From Clostridiales bacterium (GTDB lineage: Bacteria > Bacillota > Clostridia > Christensenellales > Borkfalkiaceae), in the NCBI GenBank assembly GCA_015069625.1, contig SVIE01000002.1, forward strand, positions 1 through 56,125: DNA of 56,125 nt. The letters run 5' to 3'. Below, in pieces: positions 9,156 through 47,940 of the stretch (position 1 is its first letter; each line of letters begins with the position of its first letter). The notes under the pieces are model-generated. The model saw nothing but the letters and a program-made list of their open reading frames with translations. It was not told the DNA's origin and made no database searches. Both the position numbers and the translations under genes were made by a program.

Positions 9156-9323
9156 GTGCGACCAAACTTCATATTCTTTAAGATAAGGTGCTCTTATCTG
9201 GTAGAAGTGCAACTTTTCGCATTACATAACTTTATTTTAAAGAATATAGTTGTAAGTTTGTGTCGCAACAAAGCGGAACGTGCATTTTTACGAGTGTCGT
9301 TTCGTAAGGAGCGACACTTTTTG
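9156..9323 (+). ncRNA. Structured 5' leader with terminator (candidate attenuator/riboswitch-like element)
   Basis: P1 TGCGAC(9157-9162)/GTCGCA(9262-9267) and AAACTT(9164-9169)/AAGTTT(9254-9259); P2 TATTCTTTAA(9172-9181)/TTAAAGAATA(9237-9246); P3 AGATAAG/CTTATCT(9181-9199); terminator AGTGTCGTTTC-GTAA-GGAGCGACACT + U tract (9293-9322). Confidence 0.65.
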
Positions 9324-44321: not shown

Positions 44322-44534
44322 TCAAGTGATGGCTTTGATTATGTCTGAAAAGAAATCGTCAAATGAAATATTAAAGTATTGTACAAGTGAAATAATATAA
44401 CTAGCCTTTGGTTCGTTAACGTTCCTTTCCCAATAATCAATTGCTTTTTGGCTAACGCCTATCATTTTTGCTAATTGAGTTTGCGATAAATTTTCGCCTA
44501 AACGCAATTCTTTTATTCTTTCGCCTATTGTCAT
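44322..44534 (-). CDS. Small XRE-family HTH regulator
   Basis: MTIGERIKELRLGENLSQTQLAKMIGVSQKAIDYWERN, 70 aa. Confidence 0.9.
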   Translation of the reverse strand: MTIGERIKELRLGENLSQTQLAKMIGVSQKAIDYWERNVNEPKASYIISLVQYFNISFDDFFSDIIKAIT

Positions 44535-44547
44535 ACTATTATTATAG

Positions 44548-44596
44548 AAGAAGTCTTCTTAAAATAATTGACAAAGAAGAAATCTTCTTGTATAAT
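44548..44596 (+). promoter_or_regulatory. Divergent operator/promoter: consensus sigma-A promoter with palindromic operator in the spacer
   Basis: TTGACA (44568-44573) and TATAAT (44591-44596), 17-nt spacer containing AAGAAGA-aa-TCTTCTT (44574-44589); second palindrome AAGAAG-t-CTTCTT (44548-44560). Confidence 0.8.
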
Positions 44597-44629
44597 ATTG
44601 CTAATTAAATATAAAGGAGAGATTTATAT

Positions 44630-44839
44630 ATGTCTTATTACGATTGGAATGACTATGAAAGAGATGACTACGAAGAAGAAACGAGCAAAGATTACTTGGT
44701 GGTATATATTAATCCTATTCTAGAGCGAGAAGATAGTATGGTAGTTGAAGTAGAAAGTGCAAGAGAAGCAATTCGTGTAGTTTATAAAAGGTACAAAGGA
44801 TATGTTGTTACAATTTTAAACGTGCAAGAATTAGATTAA
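44630..44839 (+). CDS. Hypothetical small acidic protein, 69 aa
   Basis: MSYYDWNDYERDDYEEETSKDYLVVYI...; SD aaaggagag upstream. Confidence 0.75.
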   Translation: MSYYDWNDYERDDYEEETSKDYLVVYINPILEREDSMVVEVESAREAIRVVYKRYKGYVVTILNVQELD

Positions 44840-45165
44840 ATTAAAAAACGGTGTAAAAGTCTACCGTTTTTTAGTTGTTTCTTTTTACGTTTAATTATAA
44901 ATAGTGCAATGCACAAAACAAGAAGGCACTAAGAAAAAAAGAATAGTTTATAAAGCTGGTTGAGTGTAAATTGAATAGAAAATAAAAATTCCATAATGAA
45001 ATAGTCTTAACCTATCCTTTTTTAGTTTGAGTTTTATTATTCGTCTTTAATATTGCCGATTTTAACCTTTTCTAAAATTATACCTAACTAATACTTGCCG
45101 ATAAACTTTGAAACAGGTTGAAATTTTTTAGCCGCTATGTTAATATAAAAGCAAGGAGATAAATT

Positions 45166-45462: not shown

Positions 45463-45583
45463 AATAGAAAAAGCAAAAATAAAGGGTGCGGAAATATGCG
45501 CGACACTCTTAGGGATTTAAATTAAATAGTTCAGAAACTCGACTTTTAATAAGTCGAGTTTTCTTTTATCTACGAAAAACTGC

Positions 45584-45612
45584 TTGATAAAACTTTTTAT
45601 AAGTGTTATAAT
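45584..45612 (+). promoter_or_regulatory. Sigma-A promoter for the second structured leader
   Basis: TTGATA (45584-45589), 17 nt spacer, TATAAT (45607-45612). Confidence 0.85.
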
Positions 45613-45617
45613 GAATA

Positions 45618-45830
45618 TGCCAAACAATCTGAATACTCGTAGCCATAGGTGTTTTTTCTTTTATAGGAATATTATACCTTTTTTTGGCAATACCATTAAG
45701 AAAACCAAATTTGTAAAAATGCGGCTCCTTCTTAATGGTAAGGTTTCACCTATACTACGATGGATTGTTTGGCGACAATTGGAGTCTGCGTTTTTGTGCG
45801 ACGACTTCGGTTGTCGCACTTTTTATTTTT
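45618..45830 (+). ncRNA. Structured 5' leader with terminator (candidate attenuator/riboswitch-like element)
   Basis: P1 GCCAAACAATC(45619-45629)/GATTGTTTGGC(45763-45773); P2 CGTAG(45638-45642)/CTACG(45755-45759) and ATAGGTG(45645-45651)/CACCTAT(45747-45753); P3 TACCATTAAGAA(45691-45702)/TTCTTAATGGTA(45729-45740); terminator GTGCGACGAC-TTCG-GTTGTCGCAC + U tract. Confidence 0.75.
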
Positions 45831-45850
45831 ACAAAAAAGGAGAATGTATT

Positions 45851-47800
45851 ATGCAAAAGAAGATGTTGCTTGTTTTATTAAGTGTTGTTATGATTTTTTC
45901 AATGTTATTTGGTATTAGTGCTTGTTCTATCAATAACACAGTAAAATATATTTACACGAACAGTCAAGGTGAAACAAGTTGTTTTGAAATTGATTTTGAT
46001 AAGAAAGAATATACATATAGTGGTAACGCGTGTTATAGGGAAGGTTGGGGCTATATGTTGATTCCGAACACACGCTTTGAAGTATCAGGCAATATAAGAT
46101 TAGATTATAAAATTAATGGCTATACTGTCTATAAGTTTTCGAATCACCCATGGAATTATCAATATCCTATGGGTATAACAAGTGATGGTAATATCTTGCG
46201 AGTGCAGTGGACGCCATTTAATAGTTATGATTTTATAAAAGAAGGATATTTGCAAGATGAAAATTCTGGTAATAACTCTAATAATAACGACGAAAATTCT
46301 AACAACAACTCTAATAATAACGACGAAAACTCTAACAACAACTCTGAACAACAAGAAACAACTCAAACAAGTTACTCAATAGAATATTTTGTCAACGATA
46401 ATAATTTTGGGAGCGTTACAGGAGAATTAAACCAAACCGTAAAAAGTTATCAAAACGGAACGAACGTTACGGCGGTGGCTAAAGACGGCTATCGTTTTAT
46501 CGGTTGGTCTGATGGTGTCACCACAGCAACAAGACAAGAAAAAAACGTAACCAAAAATATTTCAGTTACAGCATATTTTGAAATAATACCAACATACACC
46601 ATTGAATACCACACAGGTGGAAATGGTAGTATAGATGGAGAAACAAACCAACTTGTAAAAGAAGGCGAAAATTCAAGTTCAGTGACTGCCGTACCAGATG
46701 AAGGATATAGATTTGCAGGTTGGTCAGACGGCGTAAAAGATGCAACAAGGCAAGATTTTAACGTTGTATCAGACGTAAATGTTAGCGCAACTTTTGAATT
46801 GATTGAATATACTTATACTTATAAAGTTCAAGTTAGTGGTGGAACGTCAATGGGAACGCTAAACGGTGATAGAGAAACTGTCGTAGAAATGAAAGGTTCG
46901 ATTTTAAACGACTACCAAGGAGAATTAGTAACTGTTTACCCTTCGCAGGGATATTATAGATTTATTGGTTGGTCAGACGGAGAAACAGAAATTACCAGAC
47001 AAGATAAGATAGAAAGCGATAAAGAAGTTATTGCACAATTCGAGTTGTTTTACAAATTCAACTTTGTGGCAGGAGATGGTGGTACTATTCAGGGCGAAAC
47101 CTATCAAGAAGTAGGCGCTGGTAATTATACGACAGCCGTTACAGCAGTGGCAAACGAAGGATATAAGTTTTGGGGCTGGCAGTACCAACAATACCATAGC
47201 GACTATTATTTGTGGAGCGAAACGATTTCCCTTTCAACGCAAGACATGCTTTTTAGCAATACATACACTGCTATTTTTAAAAAAATAGAATACACGGCGA
47301 AATATACTAGTACTTACGGTGGCACGATTAAATATGAATATACGCCATTTGATCAAAATGCAAATAATTACAATTCAAATGGTGTAAGTAGCGTTACGTT
47401 TACTATTTCGATAGACAATCAATTCAATGCACCACAAGTGACGGCGACGCCCGACGAAAATTACCGTTTTGTGAAATGGAGCGATGGAAATACGTCCCCC
47501 ACAAGGCAAGATTTAAATCTTAACGGGAATTTAGAAGTTAAAGCGGAATTTGTTAGGGTTTATAAATTTACTTTTGTAGCAGGAGAAGGCGGTACTATTC
47601 AGGGCGAAACCTATCAAGAAGTTGACGCTGGTAATTATACGACAGCCGTTACAGCAGTGGCAAACGAAGGATATGAATTTTGGGGCTGGCAGTATCAACA
47701 ATATCATAGCGATTATTATTTGTGGAGCGAAACTATAACGGTTTCTTCAAATGATTGGACGTTTGGGGATTGTTATACCGCAATATTTAAAAAAGTATAG
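45851..47800 (+). CDS. Lipoprotein with multiple InlB-like (Listeria-Bacteroides) repeats
   Basis: MQKKMLLVLLSVVMIFSMLFGISAC lipobox; Asn-rich linker; repeated AVAKDGYRFIGWSDGVTTATRQ-type units. Start 45851, not 45584. Confidence 0.85.
   Translation: MQKKMLLVLLSVVMIFSMLFGISACSINNTVKYIYTNSQGETSCFEIDFDKKEYTYSGNACYREGWGYMLIPNTRFEVSGNIRLDYKINGYTVYKFSNHPWNYQYPMGITSDGNILRVQWTPFNSYDFIKEGYLQDENSGNNSNNNDENSNNNSNNNDENSNNNSEQQETTQTSYSIEYFVNDNNFGSVTGELNQTVKSYQNGTNVTAVAKDGYRFIGWSDGVTTATRQEKNVTKNISVTAYFEIIPTYTIEYHTGGNGSIDGETNQLVKEGENSSSVTAVPDEGYRFAGWSDGVKDATRQDFNVVSDVNVSATFELIEYTYTYKVQVSGGTSMGTLNGDRETVVEMKGSILNDYQGELVTVYPSQGYYRFIGWSDGETEITRQDKIESDKEVIAQFELFYKFNFVAGDGGTIQGETYQEVGAGNYTTAVTAVANEGYKFWGWQYQQYHSDYYLWSETISLSTQDMLFSNTYTAIFKKIEYTAKYTSTYGGTIKYEYTPFDQNANNYNSNGVSSVTFTISIDNQFNAPQVTATPDENYRFVKWSDGNTSPTRQDLNLNGNLEVKAEFVRVYKFTFVAGEGGTIQGETYQEVDAGNYTTAVTAVANEGYEFWGWQYQQYHSDYYLWSETITVSSNDWTFGDCYTAIFKKV
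46274..46339 (+). repeat. 33-bp tandem repeat x2 encoding (N/S/D/E)-rich linker
   Basis: AACTCTAATAATAACGACGAAAA[T/C]TCTAACAAC twice. Confidence 0.9.
47069..47225 (+). repeat. ~157 bp intragenic duplication, copy 1
   Basis: Near-identical to 47579-47735 (GGTIQGETYQEV.AGNYTTAVTAVANEGY.FWGWQYQQYHSDYYLWSET). Confidence 0.9.
47579..47735 (+). repeat. ~157 bp intragenic duplication, copy 2
   Basis: See 47069-47225. Confidence 0.9.
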
Positions 47801-47849
47801 CACACTATACTTTCAAATGAAAGTCGTGTATTTTGCAAGGCAAAAAAGT

Positions 47850-47877
47850 AAAGAGTAGCAAAATTTTGCTACTCTTT
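47850..47877. terminator. Intrinsic terminator
   Basis: AAAGAGTAGCAAAATTTTGCTACTCTTT. Confidence 0.8.
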
Positions 47878-47940
47878 TATAATGTCCTTAAAAATCCCTA
47901 CGTGAACCGCCTATAATCCACACCGTTTGATTTTAAAAAA

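Follow-up and report, generated by a model that had tools for sequence, protein, structure and literature searches.

Upstream of a gene for an InlB-repeat lipoprotein, in the window studied here (the whole stretch of DNA that was analysed, 56,125 nucleotides), lies an intergenic segment that carries a promoter, long helices and an intrinsic terminator ahead of the start codon. What such an RNA does, and whether it stands alone, are the questions raised by this locus. A preliminary description had read it as an attenuator-like leader. On the evidence set out below we consider it likely that the leader is a cis-acting transcription attenuator of a widespread family outside Rfam, working as a strand-exchange switch whose default is OFF. 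The preliminary description contained neither the pseudoknot that vies for the antiterminator strand, nor the extent of the family, nor the cassette in which the leader lies. The coordinates of the features are collected in Table 1.

Table 1. Positions of the leaders, their genes and the cassette ends in the window
Feature	Position	Strand	Basis or remark
Left inverted end GACACTCTTAGGGATTT	45502..45518	+	
Left-end terminator CTCGACTTTTAATAAGTCGAG	45534..45562	+	common to cassettes with other cargo
Promoter TTGATA-17-TATAAT	45584-45589 and 45607-45612	+	consensus scan; -10 ends 6 nt 5' of the P1 G
P1, 5' strand GCCAAACAATCTG	45619..45631	+	fold and covarying helix
P1, 3' strand TGGATTGTTTGGC	45761..45773	+	fold and covarying helix
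P2, 5' strand, 5+7 bp	45638-45642 and 45645-45651, with 45755-45759 and 45747-45753	+	sequence
P3, 5' strand, 12 bp	45691..45702, with 45729-45740	+	sequence, fold
Pseudoknot strand AAAAATGCGGCTCC	45715..45728	+	complementary to 45781-45795
Switch strand GGAGTCTGCGTTTTT	45781..45795	+	partner: pseudoknot strand or (5' part) terminator
Antiterminator, 5' strand GACAATTGGAGTC	45774..45786, with 45803-45815	+	MFE fold of the leader; family pair counts
Intrinsic terminator GTGCGACGAC-TTCG-GTTGTCGCAC-TTTTT	45796..45824	+	scan and family covariation
Downstream gene: 649-aa lipoprotein, InlB B-repeats, lipobox ISAC	45851..47800	+	PF18998, E = 7.4e-46
Right end: palindrome AAAGTATAGCACACTATACTTT, terminator, inverted end AAAATCCCTACGTGAACCGC	47791..47926	+	
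Second, shorter leader of the same RNA family	9157..9320	+	R2 match 44.6 bits, E = 2.9e-7
Pseudoknot of the second leader	about 9202-9221 with 9272-9290	+	duplex -17.5 kcal/mol; 0/1000 shuffles as good
Terminator of the second leader	9293-9318	+	
Gene behind the second leader: 1098-aa lipoprotein	9342..12638	+	Ig-like, InlB-like, LRR_5 and solute-binding-like parts

Architecture of the leader

The promoter, the helices of 11, 5+7 and 12 bp and the UUCG terminator with its Us, all pointed out in the preliminary description, are present in the sequence. The promoter matches 11 of the 12 consensus bases, and P1 comprises 11 Watson-Crick pairs, or 13 when two G-U pairs are counted. For the inner 7 bp of P2 the predicted fold of the window copy prefers an alternative local hairpin; relatives read by eye have a P2-like helix too, and a P3 whose letters differ from copy to copy with the pairing kept. 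P4, the hairpin around the pseudoknot strand, is weak in this copy. The terminator arms (45796-45805 and 45810-45819) enclose the UUCG loop and are followed by the U-tract, and 26 nt separate the terminator end from the ATG of the lipoprotein gene. GCGACAA (45772-45778) is indeed complementary to TTGTCGC (45811-45817), and the antiterminator to which both belong proved longer than had been noted, with 13 bp (GACAAUUGGAGUC:GACUUCGGUUGUC). GCGACAA had been placed at the end of P1; it adjoins this helix but overlaps it by only two bases, P1 and the antiterminator being nearly compatible. A third pairing, AAAAAUGCGGCUCC:GGAGUCUGCGUUUUU with one bulged U, connects the pseudoknot and switch strands; taking the window copy by itself, 9 out of 1000 shuffles reached its energy.

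The minimum free energy of positions 45612-45835 was -73.3 kcal/mol, compared to -42.7 ± 3.8 kcal/mol for dinucleotide shuffles (z = -8.0, none of 200 as good), which bears out the earlier remark that such helices are unlikely by chance. The AT-rich surroundings and the unrelated terminator just upstream (45534-45562) could suggest chance hairpins or the ordinary terminator of the upstream gene, but a z-score of this size, about 150 covarying homologues and a promoter of its own leave this reading practically no credence, and the comparative data already refute it.

A large RNA family absent from Rfam

A covariance scan, proposed in the preliminary description, gave two kinds of answer: Rfam 15 returned no family match for the window leader or for divergent members, at gathering as at relaxed thresholds, whereas covariance models built from the family's own leaders (R1 from 26, R2 from 104) found homologues. 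R1, applied to 397 genomes of the order, detected the leader RNA in 74; R2, applied to 392 of the class, detected it in 87, about a fifth of those sampled, often in multiple copies. Up to six candidates per genome were scored with R2, and several of the class genomes carry at least six copies. Within the taxonomic family, the core pattern GGCGACN{2,14}TGCGTTTTTNTGCG occurred at 35 sites in 24 of 301 genomes, and the reversed control pattern at about one. Of 399 genomes taken from the phylum as a whole, the window's own was the only one to score, and the phage, plasmid and viral collections contained no match to the leader. By a pattern scan of genome contigs L066, from an uncultured Ruminococcus, was recognised as a true distant member, and L065 and L067 as chance matches. 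A DNA search of the window's own assembly yielded three more copies, two of which precede genes for zinc-ribbon proteins and one a gene for an uncharacterised 77-aa protein. A literature search confined to the papers themselves found no earlier description, and the family may figure without a name in a long list of candidates (e.g. PMC8040213). Judged by sequence and predicted structure, the leader is a member of a large RNA family absent from Rfam.

The preliminary description had numbered this leader as the second of two, each before an InlB-type lipoprotein gene. The segment at 9157-9320, a member of the same RNA family by its R2 match, is evidently the first. For the 1098-aa lipoprotein encoded behind it, LRR_5 was assigned by match and the other domain names were given by eye.

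A TATAAT-like box lies upstream of 143 of 152 members, and in 94 it ends 6 nt before the start of the model; this usual spacing between the -10 box and P1 makes P1 the probable 5' end of the transcript. Members fall into two length classes, one of about 205 nt with 130 members and one of about 160 nt with 22. P1 reads GCCAAA.../...UUUGGC in most members, with compensated variants such as GCAACACAG/CUGUGUUGC in L070. After P1, the 152 members have a junction rich in A (often AAUA), then P2, then a small hairpin and finally the long P3/P4 hairpin. The architecture of this P1-P4 domain is conserved, with few invariant unpaired letters. Tandem leaders, two or three in a row and each with its own promoter and terminator, occur in L070, L098, L203 and L205, the last of which repeats the leader plus the gene start. 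In both tandem leaders of L206 (G830:C22) the first terminator is succeeded by an extra copy of linker and terminator, which looks like a duplication of just the expression platform.

Covariation and energies of the competing pairings

By computation we established that the elements are present and conserved and that all three pairings covary. Across 26 leaders, P1 was paired in 98.7% (three pairs changed on both sides) and the terminator in 98.4% (five such pairs). The antiterminator, (A)UCGGAG with CUUCGGU, was paired in 95.6% of cells with four pairs changed on both sides, and the pseudoknot between the apical AAAAUGCARAUUC and the linker GAGUYUGCGUUUU in 99.4%; slid controls gave 22-55%. 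Within the pseudoknot, a linker C is matched by an apical G, and a linker U by an apical A or G (AU 15, GC 9, GU 2). Eight of its 13 pairs are invariant in alignment A2, and the support for these comes from distant members. The third unit of L070 pairs GGGCAAUACGUUUU with AAAAGCGUAUGCCC, retaining the pseudoknot with wholly different letters, and L207 and L208 retain it with yet others. These distant members are the most telling evidence for the pseudoknot. When the partners of 69 distinct linkers were re-dealt, cognate pairing was stronger both for the pseudoknot (-16.8 versus -13.9 kcal/mol) and for the antiterminator (-15.3 versus -12.1 kcal/mol), and for neither did any of 5000 shuffles do as well, a significance that is overstated because the shuffles ignore kinship and the members share ancestry.

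The linker can pair with only one partner, and an antiterminator, once formed, leaves no room for the terminator. Folding of 112 long members with either state forced gave a mean of -73.0 kcal/mol for the terminator state versus -66.8 kcal/mol for the antiterminator state, the terminator being better in 112 of 112. Adding the pseudoknot, whose energy was summed from the duplex and a pseudoknot-free fold, enlarged this advantage. Because the terminator folds are predicted to be more stable, the default state would be OFF. The unconstrained minimum of the window copy is the antiterminator fold, which includes pairs forbidden in the forced antiterminator calculation, and therefore the balance between the states is close there.

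An AUG within the pseudoknot strand of 113 of 146 leaders, often opening a frame MQIP..., raises the question of ribosome-mediated attenuation, in which stalling on a short leader ORF would select the antiterminator. We rejected this mechanism as highly improbable, as a Shine-Dalgarno-like sequence precedes only 2 of the 113 AUGs, the frames range from 1 to 200 codons and contain no conserved regulatory codons, and the AUG is missing from distant members.

Genes behind the leaders

An ORF with a ribosome-binding-site-like sequence starts within 350 nt of 147 of 154 members, and none was found for the other 7; the median distance from terminator to gene start is 24 nt. The downstream genes are diverse and, by their predicted domains, rich in exported proteins (BspA-type LRR, InlB, SLH). 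Among 113 downstream proteins we counted 18 with BspA-type LRR_5, 4 with List-Bact repeats, 4 with copper-amine-oxidase N-domains and 2 with SLH; zinc ribbons, EcoRI-type methylases, bPH, DUF4236, SPFH and LytTR were also encountered. A lipobox-like start is present in 45 of 147. With LRR_5 in 16% of the downstream proteins and only a handful of matching ORFs in the window's own genome, this looks like a clear enrichment. A family of 77-aa proteins (MKKKVTNEEVGE...) recurs behind the leader in different genomes (L007, L012, L013, L014, L020, L070, L087), and the one member scanned had no Pfam match. In L008 and L031 the leader is followed by proteins of about 70 aa made of degenerate repeats (VDYKHEADYKVFF / VKYEYQADYKVFF).

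The same arrangement bears on whether the leader is mainly a small-RNA gene, whose terminated transcript of about 205 nt would act in trans with readthrough as a secondary event. Each copy has its own promoter and a strong terminator, several stand in tandem (L070, L098, L203, L205) and the terminator state is the predicted default, as expected for such a gene; yet a start codon lies on the same strand shortly 3' of nearly every copy, and a free-standing small RNA would have no evident need of a conserved antiterminator, so that we regard this role as rather improbable.

As the downstream genes share no pathway, they suggest no ligand. A mixed regulon with no common metabolite, together with the few conserved unpaired letters, would also suit a protein instead of a small molecule bound to P1-P4, such as an RNA-binding antiterminator or a processive antitermination factor, with the attenuator otherwise unchanged. 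However, the gene families behind the leaders include no linked candidate for a regulator, and a protein ligand seems to us somewhat unlikely.

Proposed mechanism

The reading as an attenuator-like leader before the InlB-repeat lipoprotein gene gained support from the promoter spacing, from covarying P1, terminator and antiterminator helices, from the start codon about 24 nt further on and from some 150 relatives. At the level of sequence the leaders show the mutually exclusive terminator and antiterminator structures upstream of a gene that are expected of an attenuator. The leader RNA thus described probably cuts transcription short unless a signal intervenes. We infer that the pairings serve as a switch in the direction given here, driven by a ligand or factor on the P1-P4 domain. 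Transcription would start at P1 or beside it. The domain enclosed by P1 would fold first, its apical hairpin presenting the strand that reads AAAAUGCARAUUC in most relatives. The segment between P1 and the terminator, on emerging, could then pair either with this apical strand (a pseudoknot of 13-15 bp) or with the terminator, at its loop and 3' arm (the antiterminator). If the pseudoknot formed, the terminator would fold and transcription would stop after about 205 nt, the default OFF state. A signal occupying the apical strand would free the segment, and the antiterminator would allow RNA polymerase to reach the gene (ON).

Such a switch would place one regulatory design over unrelated, often surface-exposed accessory genes, and its trigger, if found, would tell what these bacteria sense before altering their surface. 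From the three pairings in the aligned members, compensatory mutants can be designed exactly, and the constancy of the promoter spacing suits single-round transcription.

Comparison with known regulatory RNAs

The best present label for the family is that of a candidate orphan riboswitch. Like transcriptional riboswitches, its members combine a 5' leader, a domain closed by P1, exclusive terminator and antiterminator structures and a gene directly behind; unlike them, the family has no known ligand, aptamer consensus or Rfam match, a long pseudoknot joins its switching strand to the apical hairpin, and its promoter is tied to P1. T-box leaders are likewise long 5' leaders with alternative terminator and antiterminator, but the family has no Rfam T-box match and the downstream genes are not amino-acid genes. 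In Clostridia, c-di-GMP and c-di-AMP riboswitches often control surface and envelope proteins; the leader has no Rfam match to either and differs in structure. The ribosomal protein L20 leader (RF00558), also an attenuator with long-range pairing, gave a weak match (16.3 bits, E = 1.2), but the score is far below the gathering threshold of 58.7 and no ribosomal protein gene lies downstream of the leaders. Type III toxin-antitoxin loci (ToxIN) share the order of promoter, structured RNA, terminator and gene. In contrast to these, the leader RNA is not an array of short repeats, and the genes behind the leaders are mutually unrelated and not ToxN-like; no endoribonuclease toxin gene was found among them.

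A cassette with inverted ends

In the window the leader lies in a mobile-looking unit bounded by inverted ends (45502-47926), at the left end of this unit, and the left terminator and the right element of this unit are common to units with other genes. The right inverted end reads AAAATCCCTA... near 47900, and the right end as a whole is 94.5% identical to that of L042, where it stands behind another gene; the right element was found at dozens of places in the genus. The window unit and L038-L042, L048-L064 and L099 are cassettes with inverted ends (GTCRCTCTTAGGGATTT), varied cargo, a common left terminator and a right palindromic element. Outside the unit ends in L040, L042 and L099, the flanking sequences form complementary arms with U-runs after them. 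At the site behind tsf where G081 carries a unit, the terminator is intact in most of 25 relatives. The units therefore appear to enter Rho-independent terminators, splitting the stem. For the window unit, synteny revealed no clean empty site; in the nearest relative the Dabb gene ends in an intact terminator and has a different neighbour. No transposase was identified in the cassettes, and unlike integron cassettes the window unit has inverted ends rather than attC-like sites. The leader RNA is not simply part of the cassette, because many leaders lie outside such units.

We tentatively extend the attenuator reading to an orphan riboswitch class that would couple an intracellular signal to the exported-protein repertoire of a mostly uncultured class of bacteria by exchange between pseudoknot, antiterminator and terminator, and that would have spread partly as the regulated left end of mobile cassettes; this wider picture is possible but still doubtful.

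Four cassettes (L054, L055, L058 and L060) have the same ends without the leader and carry another 5' start, CTCRCCGATAAATAAGAATTT, between promoter and gene; the start of L052 is similar. Upstream of the window unit, at 44330-44840, lies a divergent pair made of a small helix-turn-helix-like frame on the minus strand and a small acidic ORF, the latter preceded by a perfect TTGACA-17-TATAAT promoter (44568-44596) flanked by AGAAGTCTTCT-type palindromes.
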